Origin: a virus
Virus record (IMG/VR): IMGVR_UViG_3300045256_000282
Coordinates: 62,001 to 126,000 of that record
DNA: 64,000 bases
Strand: one strand, 5' to 3'
Part shown: positions 1 to 15,953 of the stretch, piece by piece
Position numbering within the stretch: the first letter of the stretch is position 1
Layout of the letters: every line of letters begins with the position of its first letter
Notes under the pieces: model-generated
Told to the model about the DNA's origin: nothing
Seen by the model: only the letters and a program-made list of their open reading frames with translations
Databases searched by the model: none
Made by a program: the position numbers and the translations under genes

Positions 1-92
1 ACCCGATCTCGCATCAGGTAGAGCACCTCTCCGCTGATCTCGCCAAAAACTGGGGTGACTGCCATTTCCTTGCAAGCTTGTCTTAAATCCAT
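1..92 (-). CDS. Hypothetical protein, 3' end cut by window edge
   Basis: Reading the minus strand from the ATG at 92, an open frame runs to the window edge without a stop (begins MDLRQACKEMAV). It starts two bases after the TAA of the upstream gene ending at 95, the tight spacing typical of this operon. Only about 30 residues are visible, so no function can be assigned. Confidence 0.6.
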   Translation of the reverse strand, partial: MDLRQACKEMAVTPVFGEISGEVLYLMRDR

Positions 93-94
93 AA

Positions 95-496
95 TTAATC
101 CCACCGCTTCTCGAACATGTACCAGTGATCAGTCCCTGCGGCAGATGCGATGGCTTCCTTAGCCATGATGTCAAACATGTACTCGGTCGTAGGGAGTAAG
201 AACATAAGCTCAAGAGCCTTGGCTTCGCCATCGGACATCATGCCCGGACCACGCTCTTGGCGAAGCCTATCGTCAAGCTTCATGATGAAGGCTTGATAAA
301 CGTGCTCAGAATCTTTCCAGCGATGACCATACTCGATCACCTGATCAACACCATAGTCTGTACCGGCATCGCGCTTTAAGTAAGCAGCAAACTCTGACTG
401 AGGCATAGCCTTGAAAAGGGAAATCTGATTCTCGATCGCAGCGATCGCCTTGGCCTTGAACTCTTTACCAAACTTCTTTGAATGACTGGTATACAT
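95..496 (-). CDS. Hypothetical phage protein, 133 aa
   Basis: Unrecognised soluble, mostly helical-looking protein of 133 residues with no signal peptide or clear motif. The ATG at 496 has a strong GAGGAG ribosome site about 6 nt upstream and a good sigma70-type promoter at 515-543, so it looks like the first gene of a short operon that continues into the partial gene at the window edge. Confidence 0.75.
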   Translation of the reverse strand: MYTSHSKKFGKEFKAKAIAAIENQISLFKAMPQSEFAAYLKRDAGTDYGVDQVIEYGHRWKDSEHVYQAFIMKLDDRLRQERGPGMMSDGEAKALELMFLLPTTEYMFDIMAKEAIASAAGTDHWYMFEKRWD

Positions 497-514
497 GTCG
501 ATCTCCTCGGATAC

Positions 515-543
515 AGTATCTCAAAGCCTATCAAACAAGTCAA
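515..543 (-). promoter_or_regulatory. Sigma70-type promoter with TTTGAGAT box
   Basis: On the minus strand, TTGACT and GATACT are separated by exactly 17 nt, just upstream of the gene starting at 496. The spacer end and -10 together read TTTGAGATACT, the same string as at 2424-2452 and nearly the same at 1703-1731. Confidence 0.7.
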
Positions 544-552
544 CAATTAATT

Positions 553-629
553 TGGTCCGCCACCAGGGGATTGCACCCTGCTCTAAACCGTTTATAAGAC
601 GGTTCCAGACCACTAGCCCGCCGTGGCGA
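553..629 (-). tRNA. Probable tRNA-Ile (anticodon UAU), degenerate D arm
   Basis: On the minus strand a 7-bp acceptor stem (623-629 with 557-563, first pair U-G) is followed at the 3' end by an encoded A-CCA. The anticodon stem ACCGT/ACGGT encloses the loop CTTATAA, giving anticodon TAT, which would read the rare AUA isoleucine codon. The T stem CAGGG/CCCTG has loop TGCAATC, with G where T55 is normal. The D arm only forms with two G-U pairs (CGGG/TCTG). The cloverleaf is recognisable but weak, so it could be a decayed tRNA. Confidence 0.55.
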
Positions 630-645
630 GTTCAAACGTGAATTG

Positions 646-888
646 TTAAGCCTTAGGTGAATCGTTTCGACGAGATGGCCCCTCGATGGGGATGATGTTC
701 AGGCGAACACCAACGATACGAAAAGCCTGGTCCTTATTGTAAGACCTCGCGTGATACTGCTTGGCGTCTTCATGATTAGAGAACAGTGGGCCTTGTCGGC
801 CAAACTTACCACGGCTTCCATCCTGAGTTCTCTCCTGAACGAGCAGGTGATATCCAATTTTTTCATGTGTCTTGCGTAGGCGTTTCAT
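646..888 (-). CDS. Hypothetical small basic protein, 80 aa
   Basis: Basic 80-residue protein starting MKRLRKTHEKIG, overlapping the stop of the upstream gene by four bases (ATGA at 885-888), which implies coupled translation. No family recognised. It is the last gene before the tRNA at 553-629. Confidence 0.65.
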   Translation of the reverse strand: MKRLRKTHEKIGYHLLVQERTQDGSRGKFGRQGPLFSNHEDAKQYHARSYNKDQAFRIVGVRLNIIPIEGPSRRNDSPKA

Positions 889-1145
889 TTGTTCTTCCTC
901 TTTCTTTCGATTCTCTTGATCGTTTTGATCATACCAATTGACATTAGCACAAAGTGAGACCGAAGCATAGCTCTGTTTGCTAGGATCTTTCGGATCTTGT
1001 TAAACCGTGGATACAGGATAAGGCGCTTCCACAAGGGAAAAGACTCAAGCCTAGCAAGGCCACTAAGCCTGCGCTTCTCGATCCTTTGACCCATCGCCAT
1101 CGTATCTCTCGCCATCTTTCTTGGTCCGTCCATATCTTCGTTCAT
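885..1145 (-). CDS. Hypothetical very basic protein, 86 aa
   Basis: Very Arg/Lys-rich protein with a central hydrophobic stretch near residues 55-75 (SHFVLMSIGMI), perhaps membrane-associated. It begins 1 nt after the stop of the gene at 1147-1434 and overlaps the next gene by 4 nt. No recognised family. Confidence 0.6.
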   Translation of the reverse strand: MNEDMDGPRKMARDTMAMGQRIEKRRLSGLARLESFPLWKRLILYPRFNKIRKILANRAMLRSHFVLMSIGMIKTIKRIERKRKNK

Positions 1146-1146
1146 T

Positions 1147-1434
1147 TTACGTATTAACCTCCTCTGAAAAATCAGTAAGTTTTGACAGAAAAACTCTCAT
1201 CTCATAACCGTGATCTTTATCAAGGCCCTCAGTGATACCAACATCTCCGAACCTCGAGGCCATGGTCACCCTGACTCTCAGGTTGTTCCAGGTAGCATAG
1301 AGCTTCGGAACTCCCCATCTCCATCGCCTAATCTGCCAGTAAGCAGGGATGCGCTTATACAAGAGGAACTTGCGAAGCGCCTTTGCTTGGCTCTTGTCCC
1401 TGATGTAGTCGTCGCAATGCTTAGGCTCGGTCAT
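1147..1434 (-). CDS. Hypothetical protein, 95 aa
   Basis: Unrecognised 95-residue protein, first gene of a three-gene run (1434 down to 646). A TTGACC-17 nt-GATGAT promoter lies directly upstream at 1441-1469, very close to the ATG at 1434, so the leader would be very short. Confidence 0.65.
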   Translation of the reverse strand: MTEPKHCDDYIRDKSQAKALRKFLLYKRIPAYWQIRRWRWGVPKLYATWNNLRVRVTMASRFGDVGITEGLDKDHGYEMRVFLSKLTDFSEEVNT

Positions 1435-1440
1435 ATCGCA

Positions 1441-1469
1441 ATCATCCCAGAATAATGTTATCAGGTCAA
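1441..1469 (-). promoter_or_regulatory. Sigma70-type promoter
   Basis: Minus-strand TTGACC and GATGAT with a 17-nt spacer. The -10 ends only about 7 nt before the ATG at 1434, so either the transcript is nearly leaderless or the true start is further in. Confidence 0.55.
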
Positions 1470-1480
1470 CTCGCAGGTGT

Positions 1481-1681
1481 TTATGCTGCTTCCACCAAGG
1501 TCACTTCAACCTTTCCAAGGAAAGGACGATCAAACGTAGCGCCAATTGCACCCTCTTGAGAAAGCTTGATTACGTGAGCGGTGATCTCAGCAACCATAGG
1601 ATCGGCGAGAGCTTCTTGAGTCGTCATCTCTACCGTGGTGAAGTTACCTGAGAATGTTTTAAACTTAAATTGAACTTTCAT
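1481..1681 (-). CDS. Hypothetical protein, 66 aa
   Basis: Small protein with alternating hydrophobic and polar residues (MKVQFKFKTFSGNF at the start), suggesting a beta-rich fold. It has its own promoter at 1703-1731 and a GGAGAT ribosome site, so it looks monocistronic. Family not recognised. Confidence 0.65.
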   Translation of the reverse strand: MKVQFKFKTFSGNFTTVEMTTQEALADPMVAEITAHVIKLSQEGAIGATFDRPFLGKVEVTLVEAA

Positions 1682-1702
1682 ATGCCGATCTCCTATGATT
1701 AG

Positions 1703-1731
1703 AGCATCTCAAATTCGATTAAATCTGTCAA
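1703..1731 (-). promoter_or_regulatory. Sigma70-type promoter with TTTGAGAT box
   Basis: Minus-strand TTGACA, 17-nt spacer, GATGCT. The spacer end plus -10 reads TTTGAGATGCT, matching the box seen at 515-543 and 2424-2452. Drives the gene starting at 1681. Confidence 0.7.
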
Positions 1732-2163
1732 CTATTTTCTTGATCGCAAATCCGCTATGTATTCACCATGGTGTGTCCCGTAACACGCACCCAGCGTATA
1801 CTCGTTCATTATGCTCTTAGGGCATCCGTCAGGGAGAGATGAGTTATCATGTCCCAACCCCATGGCGCAATGTCCAAGCTCGTGGTATATAAGCTCCTCA
1901 CGCGCTAGATCGTCAGACTGATCCCAGAACTCCTTATCGATCTCGATGTCACGTCTTCCGTCGCTGTAGGTTGTACACTGGCCAACTATCGGAGCCTTAG
2001 TATCTCCGAACACTGCGTTGATTCCAGCAGTATAAACTCCGATATCATTCTCGAATCTCTTCAGGTACGGACTGAGCACCTCATCTACGACCGCGACTGG
2101 TTTTGAGTCTCTCTTGCCGCAACCTGTCAGGATCATCATCGCTATCAGGATGATAACTCTCAT
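1732..2163 (-). CDS. Predicted lipoprotein zinc metalloprotease (zincin), copy A
   Basis: 143 residues from the ATG at 2163, which follows the upstream TAA by 1 nt; a longer in-frame start at 2211 would bury the signal peptide. A lipoprotein signal ends at the lipobox LTGC (Cys15). The core is HELGH at 94-98 with a third His at 105 (HExxH, six residues, His), followed by CPKSIM at 114-119, where Met119 may be the Met-turn of metzincin-like enzymes. Classical metzincins have one residue fewer before the third His. Likely a periplasmic or outer-membrane-anchored protease. A paralogue lies at 30529-31116. Substrate unknown. Confidence 0.7.
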   Translation of the reverse strand: MRVIILIAMMILTGCGKRDSKPVAVVDEVLSPYLKRFENDIGVYTAGINAVFGDTKAPIVGQCTTYSDGRRDIEIDKEFWDQSDDLAREELIYHELGHCAMGLGHDNSSLPDGCPKSIMNEYTLGACYGTHHGEYIADLRSRK

Positions 2164-2164
2164 A

Positions 2165-2404
2165 TTATGACCCAACCACGTCGTAGATCGACACGAGGAG
2201 GTCACGAGCAACTTGAGCCTTACCTTGGGCTAACACGTCGCCGTTAAGCATAGCGTAGGCTGTGTAAACACCATTCTCGTACTGGATCTCGATGTTGCCA
2301 AGCTTTGTCTGGGTAACTGCTACTGCGCCAGTCTTACGAGCAAGGGCTAAGTCTTGGTTTGCGAACTTGATGAGTTGAGCTTTGATGACTTGTAAGTTGT
2401 TCAT
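2165..2404 (-). CDS. Hypothetical protein, 79 aa
   Basis: Start taken at ATG 2404 because AAGAGG lies 7 nt upstream; an upstream extension to 2452 would run through the promoter. The product (MNNLQVIKAQ start) has no recognised domain. It is the first gene of a pair with the lipoprotein zincin, so it may act with it. Confidence 0.65.
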   Translation of the reverse strand: MNNLQVIKAQLIKFANQDLALARKTGAVAVTQTKLGNIEIQYENGVYTAYAMLNGDVLAQGKAQVARDLLVSIYDVVGS

Positions 2405-2423
2405 ATCGTTACCTCTTGAATAC

Positions 2424-2452
2424 AGTATCTCAAAGGCGACTAAATATGTCAA
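2424..2452 (-). promoter_or_regulatory. Sigma70-type promoter with TTTGAGAT box
   Basis: Minus-strand TTGACA, 17-nt spacer, GATACT, with TTTGAGATACTGTAT across the -10, almost identical to 515-543. Heads the 79-aa gene and the lipoprotein zincin. Confidence 0.75.
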
Positions 2453-2651
2453 ATATTATCTTACGTAACATAAAATTGTGTTACGTCTTGTGTTACACAT
2501 GTGTCTTTTGTGACACATGTCGTCGGTATGTCGTCGCCCATCTGTTGAGAGCTATCTCAAATGTTTAAAGCTTCGTGGCCTAAATGTTGAGAGCTTAAAA
2601 TTTGGCCGCATTATCGTAGCGGCTCCCCTCACGCGACTAGGGGTCGATTAA
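2453..2651. other. Repeat-rich intergenic region
   Basis: No gene seen. It holds a hairpin with 9-bp arms (2497-2505 with 2512-2520, loop TTTTGT), two copies of TTGTGTTAC, two copies of ATGTCGTCG, an inverted repeat TTGAGA-4 nt-TCTCAA (2545-2560), and a second TGTTGAGAGCT around 2585. Near 2605-2640 lie two short GC hairpins (GGCCGC..GCGGC and CCCCT..AGGGG) just past the gene ending at 2652, possibly a terminator, though no T run follows. Confidence 0.5.
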
Positions 2652-3077
2652 TTAGAACTCGATGCCAAGGGAGACCATACCAGTCTTGTTGGTAAGCCCT
2701 TGCACGCCTAACAGAAGGTCAGAGTCTTCGCCTAGGCGTCGGCTGTAGCCAAGACCACCCACGGCTCCGTACTTTTGTTCTGCTTCGATAGCTGTTCCGT
2801 TACGCTGAGCGTCGATGCCGTTAGGACCGACACCACCCATGATCTGAACCAGGTTCATCTTGCGCTTGACCACGGTACGAACGACCGCGATCTTCTTCTC
2901 GACGACCTTCTCCACGACCTTAACAACTGGCTTCTCTACTACCACGGTCTTAACTACCGTGCGAACCTGACAAGATGCTGGCTTCTTCTTAGCAACCGGC
3001 TTCTTGTGGCAAGGGCATTGGTCTGCCATTGCGTTTACCGACATCAAACCTACTACTAAAGCGATGATCATTTTCAT
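2652..3077 (-). CDS. Exported protein with Val/Lys-rich repeat
   Basis: 141 residues from ATG 3077, with GGAGAA 8 nt upstream. An N-terminal signal peptide probably cleaves after AMA (about residue 18). A CPCHKKP segment and a Val/Lys/Glu repeat (VVEKPVVKVVEKVVEKK) follow at about 45-75, then a C-terminal part with alternating residues ending in LGIEF, a pattern seen at the ends of outer-membrane strands. Role unknown; one of several envelope-targeted products in this block. Confidence 0.65.
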   Translation of the reverse strand: MKMIIALVVGLMSVNAMADQCPCHKKPVAKKKPASCQVRTVVKTVVVEKPVVKVVEKVVEKKIAVVRTVVKRKMNLVQIMGGVGPNGIDAQRNGTAIEAEQKYGAVGGLGYSRRLGEDSDLLLGVQGLTNKTGMVSLGIEF

Positions 3078-3096
3078 ATGCGTTCTCCTTATGTCC

Positions 3097-3125
3097 AAGT
3101 TAACAAAATGGATTAATTTAGTCAA
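3097..3125 (-). promoter_or_regulatory. Sigma70-type promoter
   Basis: Minus-strand TTGACT, 17-nt spacer, TAACTT, about 20 nt upstream of the exported-protein start at 3077. Confidence 0.6.
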
Positions 3126-3170
3126 GATAATAAAAAAGGGGGCGGTCGAAGGAAACCGCCCCCAGCACTC

Positions 3171-4451
3171 TTAGTGTGTCAAGAGTGACTTACCAACGAC
3201 CGTTCTAGCGATCGTTGAGGATGACCATTCAAGGAGTAACGCGATCTGTGTGCGAGGACCTTGGAAGTAATCGATCTGGAAGGCATGACTACCTTGCGAC
3301 AAGAAGCCAGTGGCGGTCTTGGTCGAAGGAGCATGCAAACCGTCATGATTAAGCGCCACAGCTCCGTCAAGCTTAAGGATCGCACCATCGTCAGCCGTGA
3401 GGTAGAACGTGTAGGTGTCTGCCTTAGCAACCGCAAGCTTACCTACGCAGCGAAGTCCGTACCACTCTAGGTACTTGGTTCGAACAGAGCTGTCGTTGAT
3501 CTTAGGGAAGCCGCCAGCGTAGTTCGTGTCGCCAACGTCGAGTTGGTCCATGACGAAGGTATACACCGGAGTCATCGTGCTGAAATCAGGTACGTTAGAA
3601 GGCTTAGTAGCGATCAGGTCGTACATCTTGCAAGACAATCCAGCCTGAACCGTGGGAGCCTTAGGCTTCTTCACGCAATAGGCGTTGTCGTACTTGTCTT
3701 TCTTGAGCTGCTCGGTAGCCTTACATTTAGGCGTACCGCGGCTGCTGATTGGGGCATCGTACACACGGCCAGCAAGAAGCGCTGCACCAAGTTCAAGCTC
3801 GTTCTCAACGTCCACGTCAACCGACTGACTTACGTTGGTCGTCTGAGTGTTCGTCTGCGTATTAGTCTGAGACTGGTTGTTTGACTGGTCCTGGCTGTTG
3901 CTGTTCGTCGAGCTGTTGTTCGTCGAGTTGTTAGCAGAGTTAGACGCAGTCCCGCTGTTGCTCACCGTGCCGCTGTTGTTGGCGTTGGAGCTTGACGTGC
4001 TGTTACCAGCCGAAGATGTCGAGCTACCGCCAGCTCCGCCAGTTGCCGATGCGTTACCGCTCGAGATCTGGTTGCTGTTAGAAGCCGAACCACCCTGAGC
4101 ACTACCGCCCTGAGAAGTTGACGTGTTGCTGTTGCTGTTCGTAGCGCTTCCACCCTGTGAGGTTGAAGTTCCACCAGTAGCAGTGCTTGAACCACCTTGC
4201 GAGGTTGAGTTCGAGCTACCGCCAGAGGCAGAGTTGTCGTTGGTGCTGTTGCCGCTGTTGCTGATGCTTCCACCAGAACCCCCTGCACCTCCTGCTCCAC
4301 CAGCACCGCCAGCAGAACTATTGTTGATGTCGATGTTGATCGTTGGCGCAGGTAAACCTGATCCACCGCTGCCAGTTTCGTATACTACCTTTTCCTTACC
4401 ACAACCCGTAAGAGCCAAAGCCCCTGCGAGGATAAAAATACTCGTTTTCAT
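3171..4451 (-). CDS. PA14-domain lipoprotein with Ser/Asn/Gly linker
   Basis: 426 residues. A lipoprotein signal ends at LTGC (Cys17). Residues about 45-215 are low-complexity Ser/Asn/Gly/Thr, with repeats such as SQGGS and GGAGGAGG. The C-terminal 160 residues contain Cys pairs and a PA14-like region (YTFYLTADDGAILKLDG, then a QIDYFQG-type strand). PA14 domains usually bind glycans. The layout suggests a surface-anchored binding domain on a long flexible stalk, made inside the host and displayed on its envelope. It has its own promoter (4493-4521) and AAGGAGAA ribosome site, and is followed by a stop-proximal gap only. A role in superinfection exclusion or adhesion is inference. Confidence 0.75.
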   Translation of the reverse strand: MKTSIFILAGALALTGCGKEKVVYETGSGGSGLPAPTINIDINNSSAGGAGGAGGAGGSGGSISNSGNSTNDNSASGGSSNSTSQGGSSTATGGTSTSQGGSATNSNSNTSTSQGGSAQGGSASNSNQISSGNASATGGAGGSSTSSAGNSTSSSNANNSGTVSNSGTASNSANNSTNNSSTNSNSQDQSNNQSQTNTQTNTQTTNVSQSVDVDVENELELGAALLAGRVYDAPISSRGTPKCKATEQLKKDKYDNAYCVKKPKAPTVQAGLSCKMYDLIATKPSNVPDFSTMTPVYTFVMDQLDVGDTNYAGGFPKINDSSVRTKYLEWYGLRCVGKLAVAKADTYTFYLTADDGAILKLDGAVALNHDGLHAPSTKTATGFLSQGSHAFQIDYFQGPRTQIALLLEWSSSTIARTVVGKSLLTH

Positions 4452-4492
4452 GCGTTCTCCTTCGTTTTACGTAGGGATATACCTACACGTTG

Positions 4493-4521
4493 AATATATC
4501 CTGATCCATCGACTTGGTCAA
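4493..4521 (-). promoter_or_regulatory. Sigma70-type promoter
   Basis: Minus-strand TTGACC, 17-nt spacer, TATATT, the best -10 in the set. It drives the PA14 lipoprotein gene starting at 4451. Confidence 0.75.
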
Positions 4522-4527
4522 GTATGT

Positions 4528-5661
4528 TTAAGCTTCTCGTAAACCATCGAAATCTTTAGCGTTACACTCTTCTTTAAATCGATCGTATTGCTTGTTCGCA
4601 TAATCCTTAAGACTCAAGGGCTTACCCACGTACGCTTCCATCGTCAGAGGAAACAGTCTACCCATCGAACCCTGACTCTTGATCGCGTAATCCTTGCGCG
4701 TCTCGTGCTTGTTCTCGGCGTGAAACTTCTCAACCTCTTTTAAGGCCCAAGAAAGCTCCTTCGTGACCACGGACTCGACCCTGCTCAGCAGCTCGAGTGC
4801 TGTTGGGTCGTCGCTAAGCGCAGCCCGCATGTCGTCTGCCTTCTCCTCAAGAACGGCCTCAAGGCAGTAACGGAAATTCAAAGCGCCATCTTTTACCTTG
4901 TGCTTCTGCACGTACCAGTCGGTCTTCACCTTGACCATCTGACCGCTCTTCAGCACCCAGATGAACCCCTCGATGTTCTCCATTTCCCGTACTATGTGCT
5001 GTTTAGTATAAAATGCCGTATCTAAATCAAACTTTTTCGTGCAGAATCCTTCGACGAAGTTCTCCCAAACCTTAGGGAACGTCTTGATCTGACTTATCGG
5101 CATGTACTTACCAGTGTACTTGTGCCTTACGTTCAGCACTACCAACTTCTCTTCCTGGTATTTCACAACGATTCGGTTGTTAGGAGCAACGTACTCCATG
5201 TTTACCGTGTACTCCATCCTGTCAAGCTCCAAAAGCTCGGACACGAACTTGTAACCCATGGAATATGCTAAGTTTCTAGCCCAAAGAGCCTGGTCTGACG
5301 ACAGAGTTCCCTTCGTCTTTGTGAACAAAACATTATCTACGACGTATGTTGATATCAAGCTACCGTCCAGCTTGGTCATAACCCTCTCCACATCGCTAGG
5401 CTCGATGCACTGGGTCATAGGATTCTCGTTTAGGTTGAAGAACTTCTCCATAGGACGAGATGCGATCCTGACCGGCTCTCCGCCGTCCATCTCAAACATG
5501 ATCCCGCGAGCCTCAAGAGCCCCGTCCTTCAGCCAATCCGCGTATGAGCAGTACCTGTAGTTGAATATTCGAAACGTTCGACCAAGCATGAACTCGTCCT
5601 TGTAGTAGAAAGAGTTCGAATCTTTGACCAACTTCATCAAGTTACTGTAAAGAAGCATCAT
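4528..5661 (-). CDS. rnlA: T4-type RNA ligase 1
   Basis: 377 residues from ATG 5661 (AGAGGT upstream; the next codon is also ATG). ATP-dependent RNA ligase that seals 5'-phosphate to 3'-hydroxyl RNA ends; in T4 it repairs tRNAs cut by host anticodon nucleases. The sequence follows T4 Rnl1 closely: GRTFRIFNY near 27, ARGIMFEMDG at 51-60, RIASRPMEKFFNLNEN at 65-80, and the nucleotidyl-transfer lysine in KLDGSL (Lys97). Length matches T4 Rnl1 (about 374). No polynucleotide kinase partner is visible in the window. Divergent from the phosphoesterase at 5705. Confidence 0.95.
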   Translation of the reverse strand: MMLLYSNLMKLVKDSNSFYYKDEFMLGRTFRIFNYRYCSYADWLKDGALEARGIMFEMDGGEPVRIASRPMEKFFNLNENPMTQCIEPSDVERVMTKLDGSLISTYVVDNVLFTKTKGTLSSDQALWARNLAYSMGYKFVSELLELDRMEYTVNMEYVAPNNRIVVKYQEEKLVVLNVRHKYTGKYMPISQIKTFPKVWENFVEGFCTKKFDLDTAFYTKQHIVREMENIEGFIWVLKSGQMVKVKTDWYVQKHKVKDGALNFRYCLEAVLEEKADDMRAALSDDPTALELLSRVESVVTKELSWALKEVEKFHAENKHETRKDYAIKSQGSMGRLFPLTMEAYVGKPLSLKDYANKQYDRFKEECNAKDFDGLREA

Positions 5662-5704
5662 AGGCACCTCTACCACATGATAATATGTTTGCAAGGATTT
5701 TACA

Positions 5705-6346
5705 ATGAAAATTTTGCTACTTTCAGACACCCATGGCCAAAAAGTTAAGAATCTACCTAAGGCCGACCTACTGATCCACTCAGGGGACTGGTCAGGTGCT
5801 GGTACGTACAAGGAGACTCGAGACCTCATCGAGTGGCTCCAGACGATCAAGCACAAGTTCGGCAAGATTGTCGTAGTTCCCGGCAACCACGACAGATGGG
5901 TAGAGGCCAATCAAGCACAAGCCAAACGAGAGTTTGCAGATAACGACATGGAGCTTCTGATCCATGAGTCAACCTTCCATATGGGTGCTATCATATACGG
6001 TCACCCGATGACGCCGATCTTCGGTAACTGGGCTTTTATGGGAAATGATCGCCAGAGGAAGCTCGCGGCTGATGCTATACCTCTTGATACCTCGATCCTG
6101 GTCAGTCATGGTCCACCGCTGGGCTACCTGGACAAGCTAGCAGAGAACGGCTCGGCTCCAGGCATGTCCGTAGGGTGTAAGCACCTAGCAGAGGCGGTTC
6201 TACGGGTTCAACCTGAGATGCACGTATTTGGTCACATACACGAGGGAAGTGGAGTCATGACGCTGGGCAAGACATTACTGGTCAACGCGTCACACATGGA
6301 CGAGTACTACACGCCAACGAACGCGTTCAAGGTTGTTTACCTATAA
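5705..6346 (+). CDS. Calcineurin-like metallophosphoesterase
   Basis: 213 residues. Metal-binding motifs of the family are in order: SDTH at 7-10, HSGDW at 25-29, PGNHD at about 59-63, SHG near 135, and FGHIHEG near 175. It hydrolyses phosphoesters; the substrate is not evident. It is the only plus-strand gene in the first 22 kb and shares a 43-bp AT-rich divergent promoter gap with RNA ligase 1, so a joint role in RNA end processing is possible but only inferred. Confidence 0.85.
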   Translation: MKILLLSDTHGQKVKNLPKADLLIHSGDWSGAGTYKETRDLIEWLQTIKHKFGKIVVVPGNHDRWVEANQAQAKREFADNDMELLIHESTFHMGAIIYGHPMTPIFGNWAFMGNDRQRKLAADAIPLDTSILVSHGPPLGYLDKLAENGSAPGMSVGCKHLAEAVLRVQPEMHVFGHIHEGSGVMTLGKTLLVNASHMDEYYTPTNAFKVVYL

Positions 6347-6361
6347 GCGGACATTTTATGG

Positions 6362-6376
6362 GGGTTAAATTAACCC
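6362..6376. terminator. Possible bidirectional terminator hairpin
   Basis: A GGGTTA-AAT-TAACCC hairpin lies between the convergent ends of the phosphoesterase (6346) and the zinc-finger miniprotein (6365), partly overlapping the latter's last codons. No strong T run follows on either strand, so this is weak. Confidence 0.3.
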
Positions 6377-6535
6377 TATTGACGACCTTTTTTGGGGGGT
6401 ATCCTTGGCGTAGCATTCCTTCGAACAGAAATGCATGATGCGACCCTTCTTCGTGGTGCGGGCGATACAAACCCTCTCACCATTGCCTAGTAAGATGCGA
6501 CAGATATCACAGATGATTCCGCCGATCTTGATCAC
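6365..6535 (-). CDS. TRASH/MYM-like zinc-binding miniprotein, 56 aa
   Basis: A GTG start at 6535 overlaps the upstream stop (GTGA). The 56-residue product has CDIC at 9-12 and FCSNECY with cysteines at 37 and 41, the C-x2-C...C-x3-C spacing of treble-clef TRASH/MYM fingers. Function unknown; it may bind a protein or nucleic acid. It ends a long coupled run that begins further upstream. Confidence 0.65.
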   Translation of the reverse strand: MIKIGGIICDICRILLGNGERVCIARTTKKGRIMHFCSKECYAKDTPQKRSSIGLI

Positions 6536-6750
6536 GCGGGGTCCTCTTCAAGCTCAGACCAGTTTGGATACTGATCTTTCGTGATTAAAACTTTCTCAGC
6601 CTCACCTTGGAAGTTGCTGTAATTTCGGTTCCAGTATAAAACAGTTGCCTCGGTACCCTCGTCAGTTTCTTTCACAGAACCGATGATAGCGATGTCGATG
6701 TCTAAGCAGTTCTTGTGACGGTAGTACTTCCAGGACTTAAACGGTGTCAT
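6532..6750 (-). CDS. Hypothetical protein, 72 aa
   Basis: The start is taken at ATG 6750 because it overlaps the upstream stop (ATGA) and has GAGAGG upstream; the frame stays open to 6789, but that would overlap the upstream gene. Beta-rich 72-residue product (MTPFKSWKYYRH start). Family not recognised. Confidence 0.65.
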   Translation of the reverse strand: MTPFKSWKYYRHKNCLDIDIAIIGSVKETDEGTEATVLYWNRNYSNFQGEAEKVLITKDQYPNWSELEEDPA

Positions 6751-6989
6751 CTGAGCACCTCTCCGCGTCCCTGTTCTCCTGGCATCCATCCTTCGGATAC
6801 GAGATCATAAGGACTCTTTTCCATGGCCTTTTCGCACTCTAGGTGCATACGGCCAGTGTTGAAGTCGCCTTCCCAATGGTAGGCTCTGTATAGGTGTTTC
6901 TCACCCTTCTCGATCTTGGTAGCGCATCATTCACAAGAGTAATCCTTCCGACCTTTTACGTAGCTAGATCGAATTTCAGTATAGCTCAT
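6747..6989 (-). pseudogene. CxWC zinc-binding protein gene with in-frame TGA
   Basis: From ATG 6989 (overlapping the upstream TGA) the frame reads 20 residues to YSCE, then TGA, then CATKIEKGEKHLYRAY and onward to a stop at 6747 that overlaps the next ATG. The TGA replaces the residue between the two cysteines of a CxxC knuckle, where related phage proteins I recall carry Trp (CEWC). The later HLEC supplies another ligand. Both ends keep perfect ATGA coupling, so the full frame was recently a gene. Either a TGG to TGA nonsense mutation or readthrough inserting Trp. Confidence 0.65.
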
Positions 6990-7339
6990 TCTGGCCTCCG
7001 CTTGTAAAGCTCAATCTTGTAGATGCTATTGTAGGTCCTAAGAAGCCAGGTATCTGAATCTTCACCAGGTTCTGCGCTGATCGCAGCGCTAGTCCACATG
7101 CGATCACTCTTAAATCCGCGTCCGAAGCTCATGCACTTCTCGCCCGTCCAAGGATGAGCAGCAAATATAGCATCACCCACGTACACGTCACCAACTGGAA
7201 TCCAGGAGGATTGACCTTCTCGGTGTCTCGCAATCTTTGTAGCCCTGAAGATGGCATCACCCTTCTCGTCAAGCCAAGCCTGAAGTTTTGCCAAAGCCTT
7301 TTCGTCTACGGTATATGGTAAATCGTTATCGTTGCTCAT
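6986..7339 (-). CDS. Hypothetical protein, 117 aa
   Basis: 117-residue protein of unknown family. It contains a GDVYVGDAIFAAHPWTGE stretch and several Trp residues, suggesting a compact beta-rich fold. Its stop overlaps the start of the TGA-interrupted zinc gene. Confidence 0.65.
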   Translation of the reverse strand: MSNDNDLPYTVDEKALAKLQAWLDEKGDAIFRATKIARHREGQSSWIPVGDVYVGDAIFAAHPWTGEKCMSFGRGFKSDRMWTSAAISAEPGEDSDTWLLRTYNSIYKIELYKRRPE

Positions 7340-7357
7340 TTCTTCTTTCCTTCTCTT

Positions 7358-7609
7358 TTAAACTACACGTTCGTAAGTTTTATCAAAGATATCAGGCTTG
7401 CAAGGATAAAACTCACCGTTAACACCTTGGATTATGTAGTCACCCGGACTGGCGGTGATGATCCCTTCAAGGGTTGGAATCTCAATCTTACCCTCTGACG
7501 TCATGCTAGACATCAGGTTACCTATCCACTTGCTGATCTTTAGGAATGACTCAACACTTCCGTCGTAAAGCTCAGCCTCGATAATTACAGGTTTCTTACG
7601 GTAACGCAT
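7358..7609 (-). CDS. Conserved phage protein (PGDYIIQGVNGEFYPCKPDIF type)
   Basis: 83 residues. The C-terminal signature GDYIIQGVNGEFYPCKPDIF, with MRYRKKPVIIEA at the start, is one I recognise from many phages and prophages, where it is annotated only as a conserved phage protein. The start overlaps the preceding stop (TAATG at 7607-7611). Function unknown. Confidence 0.8.
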   Translation of the reverse strand: MRYRKKPVIIEAELYDGSVESFLKISKWIGNLMSSMTSEGKIEIPTLEGIITASPGDYIIQGVNGEFYPCKPDIFDKTYERVV

Positions 7610-7836
7610 TATTCACCTTTCGATCTCCAAAGTACTTTCTTGTTAAAATGATGCCTTATCCTGGCCTCTCCGTCAATAAACATCATAAGCTCTCCCTTGA
7701 GCTTACCTGGCCATCTCCAATGATTCTTGTGAAATCTTCCGACGATGCTCTCAAGCTCGTCAATGGCAAGTCCCGTATAGCTTAACGCTTCTTCTAATCT
7801 TTCTTCGTCTGATAGGTAAAAAGCAGAGTAGATCAT
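7609..7836 (-). CDS. Hypothetical protein, 75 aa
   Basis: Small helical protein (MIYSAFYLSDEER start) with ATGA overlap to the upstream gene and TAATG overlap to the downstream one. Family not recognised. Confidence 0.65.
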   Translation of the reverse strand: MIYSAFYLSDEERLEEALSYTGLAIDELESIVGRFHKNHWRWPGKLKGELMMFIDGEARIRHHFNKKVLWRSKGE

Positions 7837-8084
7837 AGCTCGTCCTCTCTTGCCTCTCTGAAGTCGCTAGGGTGAACCATGGCCACTATCTTACCATTGT
7901 ACCGAGCAACTATGCAATGACCAGGAACGTTAGGGATGTTGGATAGGAAGTAAACAACCTCACCTCTTTGGATGGGTCCAGAAATCAGGTCTGCGTCATC
8001 AATGAAAGCAGGATCAAATACAATAGCTTCGCCCTGTTGCCAGTTCGTGCGTCTTACAGGTTTGCTATTGCGCTGCTTCTTCAT
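7833..8084 (-). CDS. Hypothetical protein, 83 aa
   Basis: 83-residue basic-start protein (MKKQRNSKPVRRTNW) with a beta-rich body. Coupled by ATGA to the next gene. Possibly nucleic-acid-associated from its basic N-terminus, but this is a guess. Confidence 0.6.
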   Translation of the reverse strand: MKKQRNSKPVRRTNWQQGEAIVFDPAFIDDADLISGPIQRGEVVYFLSNIPNVPGHCIVARYNGKIVAMVHPSDFREAREDEL

Positions 8085-8093
8085 CGTTTCCTT

Positions 8094-8303
8094 TTACTTC
8101 TCCGCTCCACAGATAACAGAGTAGTCTCGCTCTCCCCATTTTCTGAACAACTTAACACAAGGAGAATCGTCGTAAAGCTCACCGCACCGCTTCTTGGTCT
8201 GAGCAAGAACCTTTCGGTCCTCTTCATTCCACGGGAAGCCGGACACGTTCTGCATCTTAGTCTCTGGACAGGATAGGGCGGCCAACGCTAGGAGAGTGAT
8301 CAC
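8094..8303 (-). CDS. Small predicted lipoprotein with Cys pairs, 69 aa
   Basis: A GTG start at 8303 overlaps the upstream stop (GTGA). A short hydrophobic N-terminus ends in ALSC (Cys12), a possible lipobox, although no basic residues precede it. The body has CGELYDDSPC, FRKWGERDY and a final CG, a pattern I recall from other phage small lipoproteins (SPCLKxF type). Likely exported; role unknown. Confidence 0.6.
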   Translation of the reverse strand: MITLLALAALSCPETKMQNVSGFPWNEEDRKVLAQTKKRCGELYDDSPCVKLFRKWGERDYSVICGAEK

Positions 8304-8467
8304 TCTTCACTCCTATTGTCAGCAAGCTCTAGCTGATATTCTACGGACGTGTTGGAGACAGCCTCGATAACCTCATCCATATGATCTTCTGGCACCTCTC
8401 GGTAGTTTCTCCAGAAGTCCTTAGGTTTCATATTTTCTTTAGCAATCTCGACACACATCAGGCACAT
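8300..8467 (-). CDS. Conserved small phage protein (MCLMCVEIAK), 55 aa
   Basis: ATG 8467 is preceded by GAGAGG. The product starts MCLMCVEIAKENMKP and is otherwise acidic and helical. The MCLMC start is familiar from other phage small proteins, where the CxxC may bind metal. It ends in a GTGA overlap with the small lipoprotein gene. Confidence 0.7.
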   Translation of the reverse strand: MCLMCVEIAKENMKPKDFWRNYREVPEDHMDEVIEAVSNTSVEYQLELADNRSEE

Positions 8468-8468
8468 A

Positions 8469-8669
8469 TTAACCTCTCAAGAGTACCTTCAAGATCAACG
8501 CACCAACAACCAGGACGGTGCCGATTACGGCAAGTCCCAAAAGGGTTGCGACGAACTGCGCCGCGTAAAAACCCAGGGTTGCTTTAAAGATCGTTTTAAA
8601 AGGGTGCTCTGCCAGTTGTTCTTTTGCTGCTTTGAGTAACTCGTTTGCTGAATCTTTGTTATTGTTCAT
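8469..8669 (-). CDS. Single-pass or hairpin membrane protein, 66 aa
   Basis: An N-terminal polar helix (about 30 residues) precedes a long hydrophobic region at about 33-62 (FVATLLGLAVIGTVLVVGAL). Predicted inner-membrane protein. It stops 1 nt before the MCLMC gene start. Could be a holin-like or regulatory membrane peptide, but there is no lysis context here. Confidence 0.6.
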   Translation of the reverse strand: MNNNKDSANELLKAAKEQLAEHPFKTIFKATLGFYAAQFVATLLGLAVIGTVLVVGALILKVLLRG

Positions 8670-8700
8670 TTTTTGCTTCCTTATTCGTTTGATTTACGTA

Positions 8701-8952
8701 TCAGTACGGAGAATCATTTCCCCTAGGCTCATGGTTGCTTCCTGCGATGTAATTACATACCGTGCAAGTCAACCTCTCGGTAGTGGGATGGTACGTCCAC
8801 TTGTGAGGTGGGCAGTTCTTTTCCTTACCGTGAACCTCATCCTGAAGCTCTTCTAGGATCTTCTGTCTTTTCTTCCTAGCATCAGCCTCCATCTTGTTTC
8901 CAAGCATAGCGAAACCTACTATAAAGATCAAGATAAAAGCAAATGTTAGCAT
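8701..8952 (-). CDS. Membrane-anchored zinc-ribbon protein, 83 aa
   Basis: An N-terminal transmembrane helix (FAFILIFIVGFAML) is followed by a charged helix and a C-terminal zinc site: CPPHKW then TCTVCNYIAG. Coupled to the upstream gene by TGATG. This membrane-plus-ribbon arrangement is common among phage small proteins; function unknown. Confidence 0.65.
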   Translation of the reverse strand: MLTFAFILIFIVGFAMLGNKMEADARKKRQKILEELQDEVHGKEKNCPPHKWTYHPTTERLTCTVCNYIAGSNHEPRGNDSPY

Positions 8953-9404
8953 CAGTGAAAGGTCCTTCCGCTATTGCTGCCGTCGTTTCCGCTGCCCTTT
9001 TTAGGTTTAGAGGTCGACTTATCCTGATCGTTTCGCAGCTCCTTGATCTTCTCAACAATTTCAGTCGTGAGTTTTTCGATAGTGTAGTGACCACCGCTGC
9101 TCAAGACCGTGTCCATACCAATGCAAAGACTTTTAAGCGCATTGGAGTGGATCGTACTGATAGCTCCTGCCAGTTCTTCCTTCGTGATCTTCTCTCCAGG
9201 CTTAACCATATCTTTATCTGACTCGAGATGGCCCGCCTCCATCTGACCAGCTCTTTGAAGCAGGAGGTGACTCATGCTGTCAAAAAGGGCACAGAAGTCC
9301 AACTCCTCGTCGAGGCCTTGGGTTGCAGTCTCGTCGATAAGAAGGCCAATCTTCTTATTAAAATCCTCTAACAATTTCTTTAATTTTGGGTCGATGTCAC
9401 TCAT
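8952..9404 (-). CDS. Hypothetical acidic helical protein, 150 aa
   Basis: 150 residues, helical for most of its length with charged heptad-like stretches, then a Ser/Lys/Gly-rich tail. No recognised motif. Translationally coupled to the membrane zinc-ribbon gene. Confidence 0.6.
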   Translation of the reverse strand: MSDIDPKLKKLLEDFNKKIGLLIDETATQGLDEELDFCALFDSMSHLLLQRAGQMEAGHLESDKDMVKPGEKITKEELAGAISTIHSNALKSLCIGMDTVLSSGGHYTIEKLTTEIVEKIKELRNDQDKSTSKPKKGSGNDGSNSGRTFH

Positions 9405-9585
9405 CTTTAGCTCCTAGCTCTCCGTTATTAAAAACTCCCTGCATCCGCATGACGTCCACCAAACCGTTTGCAGCCATTCGGATCTGTTCCTGAATAGATC
9501 TGATATTGTCCATTTCTTCAGACATCTTACTCGTTGTCTTATAAATCTTTCCATCAACCTCAATAGTTACCTTAATTTCCCTCAT
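9397..9585 (-). CDS. Hypothetical protein, 62 aa
   Basis: Start chosen at ATG 9585, which has GGGAGGG 7 nt upstream; the frame extends to 9648 without ribosome site support. MREIKVTIEVDGKIYK start followed by an amphipathic helix. Overlaps both neighbours slightly. Confidence 0.6.
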   Translation of the reverse strand: MREIKVTIEVDGKIYKTTSKMSEEMDNIRSIQEQIRMAANGLVDVMRMQGVFNNGELGAKDE

Positions 9586-9877
9586 CTTCGTACCCTCCCG
9601 GATAAACGTCGCCGTTCTCGTGAATCTTATCGTCCTCGTAGGGGGCAACAGCCCTACGATAAAACTCTAACTTGCATCCCTCTAAAGCTCCAACTATGTC
9701 GTTGTAGTTCTGGTAACGGGCTGAGTATCCGCCGTCAATGTTCTGACTTGTTATGAATGAAAGGCAAAGCTCTGTCAAAAGATAGTTAAGCTCTCCAGCG
9801 GTCTTGATGTCAGTGCCCTTGATCGTCGCTGTCAAGTTGCTTAGGTTTGAGCGATCCTTTTCTTTAATGTATGGCAT
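9572..9877 (-). CDS. Hypothetical protein, 101 aa
   Basis: 101 residues, mixed helix, no recognised motif. Overlaps the next gene by 14 nt and the previous gene by 14 nt. It sits in a group with the similarly sized genes at 8952-10172, several of which look helical and may belong together. Confidence 0.6.
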   Translation of the reverse strand: MPYIKEKDRSNLSNLTATIKGTDIKTAGELNYLLTELCLSFITSQNIDGGYSARYQNYNDIVGALEGCKLEFYRRAVAPYEDDKIHENGDVYPGGYEDEGN

Positions 9878-10172
9878 CTTTACCTCCAGGTAGTATCTTA
9901 AAAGAAACTCTTAGCATCTTAACAGCTTCCTCACAAAGTCTTTCGGACTCGCACAGTAAGGAAACACCATAGGCGGACGCGATAGCCCCACCGAGAGATT
10001 CTGGCGAGTTTTTTGATGCTGTTTGAAACAACTGCATCGAAGTCTTAACTGCTTCTATGCCAATCCTGATCTTCCCGATGTTCTTAAATCGCATAGTATC
10101 AGTCAAGTATTTATTAGCCTTGATCAGCCTAGCTACTGATTCGGAAAGTTCGGAGTTAATTGGATTCGACAT
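9864..10172 (-). CDS. Hypothetical helical protein, 102 aa
   Basis: 102-residue all-helical-looking protein (MSNPINSELSES start) in the tightly overlapping run from 10662 to 8701. Unknown function. Confidence 0.6.
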   Translation of the reverse strand: MSNPINSELSESVARLIKANKYLTDTMRFKNIGKIRIGIEAVKTSMQLFQTASKNSPESLGGAIASAYGVSLLCESERLCEEAVKMLRVSFKILPGGKDAIH

Positions 10173-10662
10173 CGTCCCTCGAGATCTTCGTAAGCTCTAT
10201 ATCCCCCAAGAGGATCATCACCCGACCGGAGTTCTTCTCTCCGATCCAGCGAAGCATCGTCTCCCTAAGATCGTTTAGGGTCTTAGCGGTCAGGTTAAGT
10301 TCTTCGTGATTTTTTATGACAACAGCAAGCCTATCTTGTGGACGCAGCCTAAGAGTTTTAACCTCTCTGATAAGCTTCGCAGCCTTGAGATCGTCTTCCG
10401 TTGGAGGATCAATCTTGTCAACTTCTTCGATGAGTTCCAGCACGTTTTGGATGATAAGGTCACTGTCAAGGGTTGAGGTGAAGCTTCTTTTTCCGCTTGA
10501 GGCAGTGACCGTCTTATCAGAATGGTCATAGGTAACTCGAACAGCTTCCAAACCCTGCTCGTCTGAGTAGGCATAGATGGTCTTAGACCCAGTGTATTCT
10601 GGAACACCTACTAGGGTGAAGTTCAGCTTAAAAAGTTGTGACTCAAGATCGTTGAAAAGCAT
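10156..10662 (-). CDS. Hypothetical protein, 168 aa
   Basis: 168 residues; N-terminal beta-rich part (FTLVGVPEYTGSKTIYAYSD) and helical C-terminal half. Overlaps the upstream phosphoesterase by 20 nt. No family recognised. Confidence 0.6.
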   Translation of the reverse strand: MLFNDLESQLFKLNFTLVGVPEYTGSKTIYAYSDEQGLEAVRVTYDHSDKTVTASSGKRSFTSTLDSDLIIQNVLELIEEVDKIDPPTEDDLKAAKLIREVKTLRLRPQDRLAVVIKNHEELNLTAKTLNDLRETMLRWIGEKNSGRVMILLGDIELTKISRDDVESN

Positions 10663-11371
10663 CGTAAACCTCTATTATCTCTTGTAGGGTAGCCGGTCTG
10701 TACTGGTTTGTCCAGGGCATCCCAGGGGAGTCAACGCCTACGTTGATCATGATCGAACCGTTTGGAGTCTTCCTAACTCCCCACTTCTCATGTACGTGGC
10801 CGCACAGTAGTGGCAGACCATCTTCGACCGCTGCGTACTTGTTGACCTTGTACTGTCTATCTTCCTCGTCAGCTATCGTGTACGCGCTCGAGTATGGGAT
10901 GTGATGCAGGTTAAACGTACCGATACCTGGTACCTCTAGTTGCCCTTTGACCATGATCTCGGACCATCCCCATGATTTATACTTTTCTTCCCATACCGCC
11001 CTGTTCTCAGGCTTCTTACCCTTCTTGTGCGAAGGATGGGGAAAGTCATGATTGCCAAGGACTAGGATCTTCTTTCCGTTCAAAAGCGGGGTGTAATACT
11101 CTACAGCTCGAGCTGCAAACGCAAAGTCACCCAGGTGATAAACAATATCTTCTGGAGAAACCACCGCATTCCAGTTACGAACCATGGCGTCGTTCATCTC
11201 TACGACGTCTTTCTGAATAGCCGCAGCCTTCTTCTCGGCGTCCTCGTAACCAACACTTGCCGAATCCTTAATGAAGTTATCGAGATTCGTGGTAAAGGGT
11301 CGACCACAATACCGAATTACGTTAGTGTGAAAAAAATGACTATCGCTCGTTAGAAAGATCTTCGCCGACAT
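10643..11371 (-). CDS. Second calcineurin-like metallophosphoesterase
   Basis: Start chosen at ATG 11371 (GGGAGAAGG upstream) because the metal motif begins immediately: TSDSHFFH at 8-15, HLGDF near 82, LGNHD near 105, and CGHVHEKW near 192. This is the phage-type phosphoesterase of about 240 residues, distinct from the one at 5705-6346. Hydrolyses phosphoesters of unknown identity. It overlaps the upstream small gene by 32 nt. Confidence 0.85.
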   Translation of the reverse strand: MSAKIFLTSDSHFFHTNVIRYCGRPFTTNLDNFIKDSASVGYEDAEKKAAAIQKDVVEMNDAMVRNWNAVVSPEDIVYHLGDFAFAARAVEYYTPLLNGKKILVLGNHDFPHPSHKKGKKPENRAVWEEKYKSWGWSEIMVKGQLEVPGIGTFNLHHIPYSSAYTIADEEDRQYKVNKYAAVEDGLPLLCGHVHEKWGVRKTPNGSIMINVGVDSPGMPWTNQYRPATLQEIIEVYDAFQRS

Positions 11372-11552
11372 CTGCTGCCTTCTCCCATTCGTAGTAGAAC
11401 TTGTTTCCTTCTTCGTCCTTGAAGACAGCATTCTTACCAACTGCTTTCATGAACATCAAAGCCCCCTTGCCGTTTTCTTTAGCAAGTTCTTTTACACGGC
11501 TTACAAAATCTTTGTAATCCGAGGCTTTTATCTTCACGTAGTAATGGTACAT
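11340..11552 (-). CDS. Hypothetical protein, 70 aa
   Basis: 70-residue protein (MYHYYVKIKASDYKDF) with strand-helix-strand character. Start overlaps the preceding stop (TAATG). Unknown function. Confidence 0.65.
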   Translation of the reverse strand: MYHYYVKIKASDYKDFVSRVKELAKENGKGALMFMKAVGKNAVFKDEEGNKFYYEWEKAADVGEDLSNER

Positions 11553-11698
11553 TAGGCCGCTTTCTTCTTGCTCTTCTTCGAGTTATCGAGTACCACCTTG
11601 TTGATCAGCACCTTAGCCTTAAAATCAACGTAGTAAACGATGGTCTCAGGTTGCTTCTTAGCTTCCGTCTTCTTAGGTTCTAGCTTGATAATGTTCAT
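11552..11698 (-). CDS. Small basic protein, 48 aa
   Basis: ATG 11698 with AGGAGA 8 nt upstream and a promoter at 11718-11746. Product MNIIKLEPKKTEAKKQ... ends in SKKSKKKAA-type Lys-rich tail. First gene of the run that includes the second phosphoesterase. Unknown function. Confidence 0.65.
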   Translation of the reverse strand: MNIIKLEPKKTEAKKQPETIVYYVDFKAKVLINKVVLDNSKKSKKKAA

Positions 11699-11717
11699 GG
11701 TCTTATCTCCTGAGAAC

Positions 11718-11746
11718 AGGATACCTAGTTGTACTCTTTAGGTCAA
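11718..11746 (-). promoter_or_regulatory. Sigma70-type promoter
   Basis: Minus-strand TTGACC, 17-nt spacer, TATCCT. Heads the operon from 11698 leftward, and its -35 lies directly after the end of the frameshifted gene at 11750. Confidence 0.7.
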
Positions 11747-11749
11747 GCT

Positions 11750-12078
11750 TTATCTTTGAAATTTCTTACACCAGTGACTGTGTCCAGGATGACCCAGCTT
11801 ATCTGCACCACACTCGCATATGGGCCTATTCCATCCGCCGTCCGCGTACAGCTTATGAACGTTTATACCGGGGGGGCTGGCGGTCCAGAGACTTGGCCAT
11901 AATTGGCAATGTAATCAAATCCACCATAACCTGTGTCGTAGCTAACCCACTCGTAATAGGACCCATCATAGTCGACGTAATACAGATCAATCTTAGCTTG
12001 CTCAAAGCTTCCCCAATACGTGATCTCTTTGGCGACCTTTCCGCCGTACCTGTTGTTCAGATGGGCCAAGATTCTCAT
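11750..12078 (-). CDS. Zinc-tail protein split by a C7 tract (-1 frameshift)
   Basis: From ATG 12078 the zero frame encodes 71 residues (to 11863) and stops just after a run of seven C (11870-11876 on the plus strand as G). A -1 shift in the run continues the protein for 37 more codons to a TAA at 11750, adding PICECGADKLGHPGHSHWCK. The same tail pattern, CxCGAxKxxxPxxxHxHWCK, ends the intact gene at 22013-22336, so the shifted frame is very likely real coding. The zero-frame context C CCC CCG fits a -1 slippery heptamer. Alternatives are phase variation, a decayed gene or a homopolymer sequencing error. Confidence 0.6.
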
Positions 12079-12081
12079 AGC

Positions 12082-12180
12082 TCACTTCATGTTGGGTTTA
12101 TTGATCCACCAGTATGTGCCTAGGGCTGTTGCAGCAAGTACGGATAAGACCTTGATGATAATGGAAAGTACGGTAAGCAT
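12082..12180 (-). CDS. Small membrane peptide, 32 aa
   Basis: ATG 12180 overlaps the upstream stop (TGATG). Product is nearly all one transmembrane helix (TVLSIIIKVLSVLAATALG) with a short basic tail. Its stop lies 3 nt before the next ATG. Role unknown. Confidence 0.55.
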   Translation of the reverse strand: MLTVLSIIIKVLSVLAATALGTYWWINKPNMK

Positions 12181-12986
12181 CAAGAACTCTTCTTTACGTA
12201 TCCTGTGTTCTTCTTCTCCCATTGCTGGTCGTCATCAAACGACTTTGGGCCAAGGTCAAACATGTGCATGGAGACGGACTGCTCGACCTTCACCGGATGG
12301 AGACCTGGAAACTTCTTCTTGCAAAACTTAGTAACCATACCTTCAAGTTCTTCATAGTAAGACTTGGTCAGGTACATGTTGTATAAAAGCTCTTGAGTAG
12401 CATCTTTTCCGATACGATCAATGAACGTGTCCCAAAAAGCTACGAGAGGGGATTGTCCTCGCTTAACCTTCAAGGATTTTAAATCAGGCAAAGAGACCTC
12501 TTCGTAGTCTTCTTGGTTCAAGATCTCAGGCTGACGAGGAGGGCGGCTAGCAATGATCTCTTCGTCGGTCTTTACCTTCGGGATTCCATCAGCTACGAAC
12601 GTGTATTCAGAATCGCGCAGTAGAACTCTACCGTCTTTATGAACCTCAACCACCGCCTTTGATAGGTTTGGACTATCTTCTGCGCCAAATCTTCCTTCTG
12701 ACTCGTACAAGACAAATACGCTGGTGCCGAGATCCTTAGCCAGATCCTTGATCGACTGAATCTCCTTAGTCACGTCAAGGTCACCATACCAGATCTTGCC
12801 GTGCTCTTTCGTAAACACGTTAGCGTTAAAAACTACGAGGTTGCTAGGATTGTCGTAACGATAAATCGACTTAGACCCTCCGACCATCTTACCCATGTCG
12901 CCCAAGTTAAACTGGGCGATCTTCTCAGGAGTCGAACCCTTCTGTTTAAAATCTGACGGAAATGGTACGGTTTTACTTGTTTTCAT
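12180..12986 (-). CDS. Hypothetical protein, 268 aa
   Basis: Start chosen at ATG 12986 (AAGGGAGAA upstream); the longer frame to 13064 overlaps ThyX too far. 268 residues with no recognised catalytic motif; the middle has Lys/Asp-rich segments and a Pro-rich turn (SRPPRQPEI). It directly follows and overlaps thyX, so it is co-expressed with it. Confidence 0.65.
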   Translation of the reverse strand: MKTSKTVPFPSDFKQKGSTPEKIAQFNLGDMGKMVGGSKSIYRYDNPSNLVVFNANVFTKEHGKIWYGDLDVTKEIQSIKDLAKDLGTSVFVLYESEGRFGAEDSPNLSKAVVEVHKDGRVLLRDSEYTFVADGIPKVKTDEEIIASRPPRQPEILNQEDYEEVSLPDLKSLKVKRGQSPLVAFWDTFIDRIGKDATQELLYNMYLTKSYYEELEGMVTKFCKKKFPGLHPVKVEQSVSMHMFDLGPKSFDDDQQWEKKNTGYVKKSS

Positions 12987-14193: not shown

Positions 14194-14194
14194 A

Positions 14195-14530: not shown

Positions 14531-14600
14531 ACCTTCTCCTTTTTTGAAGTCCATGACATGAATATATCATGAGGGAGAAGGGTTAAAAAGGGGAAAGTTG

Positions 14601-14660: not shown

Positions 14661-14664
14661 AAAT

Positions 14665-14738: not shown

Positions 14739-14750
14739 ATATTTAAAGTA

Positions 14751-14877: not shown

Positions 14878-14879
14878 AG

Positions 14880-15934: not shown

Positions 15935-15953
15935 ATGATCAAGATTCGTTCTT

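Follow-up and report, generated by a model that had tools for sequence, protein, structure and literature searches.

A stalked PA14 lipoprotein of an Mx1-like myophage: kinship to a bacterial lipoprotein family and a possible role at the infected-cell envelope

Why should a phage encode a lipoprotein that carries a PA14 domain at the end of a long low-complexity stalk? The question is raised by a gene in the window, the 64,000-nucleotide stretch analysed here, which comprises bases 62001-126000 of the 149,068-base viral record of a myophage (G000). The initial annotation had placed this gene at 3171-4451, and these are indeed the exact limits of a minus-strand open reading frame (start at 4451, end at 3171) that encodes 426 residues (Table 1). 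The reading we favour, at a probability of about 0.4, is a lectin lipoprotein on the envelope of the infected cell, most likely blocking the adsorption of further phages.

Table 1. Features of the PA14 lipoprotein gene and its neighbours (window coordinates)
Feature	Position	Strand	Details and basis
Sigma-70-type promoter-like site TTGACC-17-TATATT	4493..4521	minus	consensus match only, 10/12
Ribosome-binding site AAGGAG	4457..4462	minus	11-mer AAGGAGAACGC common to the gene starting at 3077
PA14 lipoprotein gene	3171..4451	minus	426 aa ORF, ATG start
Signal peptide with lipobox LTGC	4401..4451	minus	predicted lipidated Cys17, Gly at +2; sequence
Low-complexity stalk, residues 28-205	3837..4370	minus	93 % S/N/G/T/A/Q
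Segment preceding PA14, residues 206-302	3546..3836	minus	second half (CxxYDL...PDFSTMTP) alignable to bacterial relatives
PA14 domain, residues 303-420	3192..3545	minus	Pfam profile and fold of the AlphaFold model
Asp354-Asp355	3387..3392	minus	counterpart of the DcisD calcium/sugar motif (PMC8092209); alignment
Gln397-Gly398 of YFQGPR	3258..3263	minus	counterpart of MpPA14 loop 11 Gln156-Gly157; alignment
Intrinsic terminator 3' of the PA14 gene	3138..3163	minus	10 pairs, 8 GC, T-tail
Small exported protein, 141 aa	2652..3077	minus	signal peptide, Lys/Val-rich linker, C-terminus SLGIEF (outer-membrane-like)
Small ORF	2165..2404	minus	end overlaps the region directly before the metallopeptidase start
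Lipoprotein with HELGHC metallopeptidase motif	1732..2163	minus	PhageMetallopep, Pfam E 3.4e-6

The phage origin claimed for the gene holds, since terminase, portal, major capsid protein, tail sheath, DNA polymerase and ribonucleotide reductase are encoded on the same record, besides a baseplate and a GroEL-like gene. The nearest named phage is Mx1, a Myxococcus phage with a contractile tail (PMC10720576), whose capsid protein is 54 % identical over the full length and whose terminase is 35 % identical; about 36 IMG/VR contigs encode a capsid protein with 53-77 % identity. A BLAST search of the G000 phage for a homologue of the Mx1 endolysin found none. The GroEL-like chaperonin gene lies at 4671-6452 of the record (L116 4671-6452), and Mx1 has one too. 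A ClpP-like protein is kept across the clade, at C1 147780-148781 of G000 (L121 2781-3782, minus strand) and at L232 10830-11579; a signal peptide (MKVFLAIMLFCGVSFA) on the L232 copy suggests that a ClpP-type protease is exported. Adjoining the PA14 gene, at window 4528-5820 (minus strand), is a T4 Rnl1-type RNA ligase with 44 % identity to ligases of T4-like phages, which is absent or present only in distant forms in most of the Mx1-like relatives searched.

The protein begins with MKTSIFILAGALALTGC, in which a charged start, a hydrophobic core and a lipobox cysteine, the features of a signal peptidase II substrate, can be recognised; the lipobox noticed by the initial annotation is LTGC, with Cys17. 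The low-complexity stalk, put at about 170 residues, was found to measure 178 residues (28-205), 93 % of them Ser, Asn, Gly, Thr, Ala or Gln, with two runs of 56 and 33 residues composed purely of these; it is uncharged and flexible. By the rule known from E. coli, Asp at position +2 is an inner-membrane signal, and the phage protein, with Gly at +2, is without it. Export by Sec and lipidation at Cys17 would thus be expected to be followed by transfer to the outer membrane, where the stalk would hold the head off the membrane.

The inner leaflet is the default destination for many lipoproteins, and the head may alternatively face the periplasm and bind peptidoglycan or periplasmic glycans, with a role in envelope remodelling or in lysis together with the HELGHC metallopeptidase lipoprotein encoded close by. 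A stalk of 178 residues is, however, long for the periplasm, and the heads vary from relative to relative. The surroundings of the PA14 gene showed no lysis gene, in a search that did not locate the lysis genes of this phage at all, and a spanin pair with the downstream small protein was rejected because the latter has a cleavable-type signal peptide and not an inner-membrane anchor. We regard such a periplasmic role as rather unlikely and place it third, after exclusion and adhesion.

The C-terminus had been described as PA14-like, and both the profile search and the structure prediction bear this out. The Pfam PA14 profile (PF07691) matches residues 303-420 at an E-value of 8.8e-13, with 48.7 bits against a curated cut-off of 24 bits. 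AlphaFold2, given the C-terminal 221 residues and 27 relatives, returned a model with a pLDDT of 83.9 and a pTM of 0.73, the first 27 residues of the piece being of low confidence, and comparison with solved structures put only PA14 domains at the top (Z 13-19, over about 125-160 residues). These include 6qe7, from RsgI-type anti-sigma factors (Z 19.4), the RTX-adhesin PA14 6m8m (Z 18.9), sugar-bound MpPA14 (Z about 18.6) and the yeast Flo/Epa adhesins (Z 13-16; 15.3 for Flo5). By model and profile together, the lectin fold of the head is well supported.

In MpPA14, the domain from the ice-binding adhesin of Marinomonas primoryensis, the sugar is held via calcium on Asp110-cis-Asp111, aided by Gln156, Gly157 and Asp159 of loop 11 (PMC8092209). 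Alignment places both halves of this Ca1/sugar site in the phage protein, as Asp354-Asp355 and Gln397-Gly398, and all four residues are invariant among 17 aligned sequences; the profile alignment likewise sets the QG of YFQGPR on the QG of 6m8m. The fold, the Asp-Asp pair and the Gln-Gly of loop 11 are therefore held in common with MpPA14 and the RTX-adhesin PA14 lectins (6x8a, 6m8m), whereas MpPA14 sits in a 1.5-MDa adhesin and its loop 11 ligand Asp159 has no match in the aligned phage protein. A calcium-dependent lectin is supported by these residues, though not proved.

A scan of bacterial genomes detected many PA14 proteins, for the most part large enzymes. One locus (L005) led to the phylum holding the MAG 'Proteobacteria bacterium WB4_1_1462', in which 22 of 58 genomes encode relatives, with up to 10 per genome. 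A look for SSU rRNA in four genomes of the phylum found none, and an Oligoflexia- or Bdellovibrio-like affiliation would be no more than a guess. The best of them are 35-43 % identical in the PA14 region, and the alignment extends into the segment preceding the domain. As a lipobox, a low-complexity linker and a C-terminal PA14 domain are frequently combined there, the stalked layout is ordinary for this phylum; it is also present in three related phage contigs, and the opinion of the initial annotation that the architecture is unusual has to be given up. The chromosomal lipoproteins further resemble the phage protein in their FPG/EWFG and YFQGPRxxIAL signatures, and differ from it in their chromosomal location and in their stalks, which are for the most part shorter and rich in Thr/Gly, Pro or Asp. 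With its C-terminal PA14 domain, QGP signature, low-complexity linker and lipobox, the product of 3171-4451 is, on sequence grounds, a phage member of this bacterial family of stalked PA14 lipoproteins. The same phylum also has subtilisin-like proteases with a Pro/Thr-rich linker and PA14 at or near the C-terminus (L110, L111 and L088, the frame of L088 being interrupted).

Amongst 35 related viral records, G000 not counted, two have a PA14 domain above the cut-off. A lipobox and PA14 are accompanied by a collagen-like stalk in G072 (L161/L239; Pfam Collagen E 6.7e-14), by a short GDTGATGPQGPQGP stretch in G094 (L162) and by a collagen-like stretch in a further contig, G095 (L232), which has the ClpP-like and other genes in common with the clade and whose PA14 lipoprotein is 33 % identical to that of the window. 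The three proteins are alike in lipobox, extended stalk and PA14 head, but their stalks are collagen-like Gly-X-Y and they are only 29-37 % identical to the window protein. When the PA14 heads were placed in a tree, the four from phages were grouped in only 66 % of bootstraps, and hence a single origin is neither shown nor excluded. Exact-peptide scans of viral contigs with the window protein or a two-row alignment returned nothing, and the 17-row alignment was judged too loose for use as a scan query. The sole match in the annotated phage collection, MT836435 (MT836435.1, L002), turned out to be a bacterial-type beta-hexosaminidase on an unannotated contig and was dropped as a phage relative; this contig, labelled 'Bacteriophage sp.', also encodes a cation-efflux-type protein and an ABC transporter and is probably bacterial DNA.

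Such patchy presence, and a PA14 region this similar to that of chromosomal lipoproteins, would suit a captured bacterial gene that has no selected function in the phage. We consider such a passenger improbable, given that four separate phage records carry the gene, some with matching neighbours, and that the frame is intact, the site residues are conserved, the divergence is long and the gene has regulatory signals of its own. The gene is best explained as an accessory one in Mx1-like myophages, belonging to the family of the chromosomal stalked PA14 lipoproteins. Accessory status, with PA14 in two of 35 related records, fits any accessory role equally, a point that weighs against exclusion.

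The least expected result is that stalks and heads are swapped beside two constant kinds of exported neighbour. In the window, next in line after the PA14 gene are the small exported protein, one ORF and then the HELGHC lipoprotein, and in G072 a similar small protein (ending GLGFEF) comes 10 bases after the PA14 lipoprotein, downstream as in the window. In G073, the lipoprotein has a coiled-coil stalk and precedes a homologue of the 2652-3077 protein (34 % over 105 residues, E 1.8e-5); some 2 kb further come, in consecutive order, a metallopeptidase lipoprotein, a collagen-like lipoprotein and a second small protein (ending GIGVSF), while G063 has the order metallopeptidase, small protein (ending GLGYNF), collagen-like lipoprotein. 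The stalked lipoproteins of G063 and G073 carry heads other than PA14, beside both kinds of exported neighbour. Counterparts of the small protein adjoin stalked lipoproteins in G072, G073 (twice) and G063, the homology being clear only between G000 and G073 and the others being linked by their layout and by profile scores that are weak (E 0.002-0.008); relatives of the metallopeptidase lipoprotein occur in eight phage records of the clade, G000 included. As the placement is conserved while tip and stalk change (G063, G073), an exposed binding protein would suit this position. The coiled-coil lipoprotein of G073 (L203 18218-19162) has a long stalk and a small C-terminal head, with the small exported protein next to it. 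The window also encodes a second metallopeptidase lipoprotein, with a HEAGHC motif, at 30529-31116 (minus strand), 29 % identical to the 1732-2163 protein.

The C-terminal residue pattern of the 2652-3077 protein fits an outer-membrane barrel, with significant amphipathicity in only one of five counterparts, and this small partner could help to expose the PA14 head at the surface. Pfam gave neither a barrel nor any other match to it, and its AlphaFold model reached a pLDDT of only 37, so that a YadA-like or other barrel anchor is neither supported nor refuted. Kinship to toxin B subunits was discarded, the NCBIfam matches being weak, confined to the signal peptide and far under the cut-offs.

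The PA14 gene and the small ORFs around it form a block read leftwards, separate from the structural genes, which are read rightwards. The promoter-like site ends about 40 bases ahead of the start codon and the strong terminator starts 8 bases past the stop codon, so the gene is read as a one-gene unit. The initial annotation had spoken of the gene's own strong promoter; a promoter-like site is indeed there (10/12), but 'strong' is a statement about consensus only and several neighbouring genes have similar TTGAC sites. In positions 1-20000 there are 28 promoter-like sites, against 21.3 in shuffles (sd 4.2), mildly above chance, and because such sites barely exceed the shuffles, early expression of the PA14 gene is only a guess. 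A near-identical promoter-like sequence, TTGAC...TTTGAGATACTGTA, is found at about 543, 1731 and 2452 (minus strand), directly upstream of separate small genes, and these shared sites may represent a phage-specific early promoter.

Position and export also bear on whether the protein might be incorporated in the particle and decorate it for host binding. Virion-type proteins with a PA14 domain are found in other phages (L235, L237; BFVD matches), but here the signal peptide and lipobox route the protein out of the cytoplasm, the site of particle assembly, and the gene is outside the rightward structural block, which makes a virion component highly improbable.

Many phages express early exclusion proteins, the lipoprotein Llp of T5 among them (PMC9586334), and this parallel, drawn by the initial annotation, is apt insofar as Llp and Cor are phage lipoproteins made in the infected cell. 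It goes no further, as Llp is small, lies on the periplasmic side, acts on the protein receptor FhuA and has neither lectin nor stalk (PMC9586334). That the window lipoprotein may face the periplasm, as Llp does, counts against exclusion; the profile search gave no match to an exclusion or defence family, and amongst the Llp/Cor exclusion lipoproteins only the Cor profile matched, in the signal peptide region (E 0.24). According to the exclusion reading, the head would bind, via calcium, a glycan of the host. Acting in cis, the lectin would bind the cell's own surface polysaccharide and so cover or cross-link the glycan used for phage adsorption, and the masked glycan would mean less superinfection and fewer progeny lost to infected cells and debris.

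Acting in trans, the same lectin could glue cells together, sticking the infected cell to kin, prey or matrix much as flocculins act in yeast; progeny might thereby reach new hosts, or the behaviour of the host might be altered. The yeast flocculins and epithelial adhesins (Flo5, Epa1; Z 14-15) have a similar plan of PA14 head, low-complexity stalk and lipid anchor, and the fold matches extend to Flo1, Flo5 and Epa, although these are eukaryotic proteins with a GPI anchor, an N-terminal PA14 domain and extra subdomains. In Myxococcus, the genus infected by the nearest named phage, the PA14 surface receptor TraA acts with the co-operonic TraB, an envelope partner, to mediate contact (PMC3325183), and probably makes cells adhere in a like way. 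The resemblance of the M. xanthus pair lies in a PA14 surface receptor with a predicted calcium site and an envelope partner encoded next to it (PMC3325183). No homology to TraA or TraB beyond PA14 emerged, however: sequence inspection and Pfam scans found none of the TraAB hallmarks, namely the Cys-rich repeats and MYXO-CTERM of TraA and the OmpA domain of TraB, in the products of 3171-4451 and 2652-3077. Stalks and heads differ among the phages, and clumping benefits a lytic phage less than a lysogen. An adhesin in trans thus appears doubtful, and comes second to exclusion.

Since the design is common in one bacterial group and reappears, with stalks and heads exchanged, in related phages, the PA14 lipoprotein has probably been borrowed as a means of altering the envelope of the infected cell, and the recurring cassette sets it apart from a mere copy of the bacterial family. 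In a wider and more speculative reading, which we hold to be unlikely as yet, Mx1-like phages would carry a cassette in which an exchangeable tip (PA14 lectin or another domain) is set on a lipid-anchored stalk (Ser/Asn/Gly-rich, collagen-like or coiled-coil), with an adjoining small envelope partner and often an HExxH lipoprotein, and would use it to reprogramme what the infected cell binds in order to exclude rivals or alter cell contacts. Phage exclusion lipoproteins described so far are small, and T5 Llp, the one best studied, targets a protein receptor; a stalked phage lectin would be a glycan-directed version of such a protein. With its exchanged stalks and tips, the recurring neighbourhood is a defined, testable module in the little-studied Mx1-related phages, and it links these phages to a family of bacterial stalked PA14 lipoproteins that is both expanded and uncharacterised. 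If the cassette reading is true, the phage changes what the surface of the infected bacterium binds.
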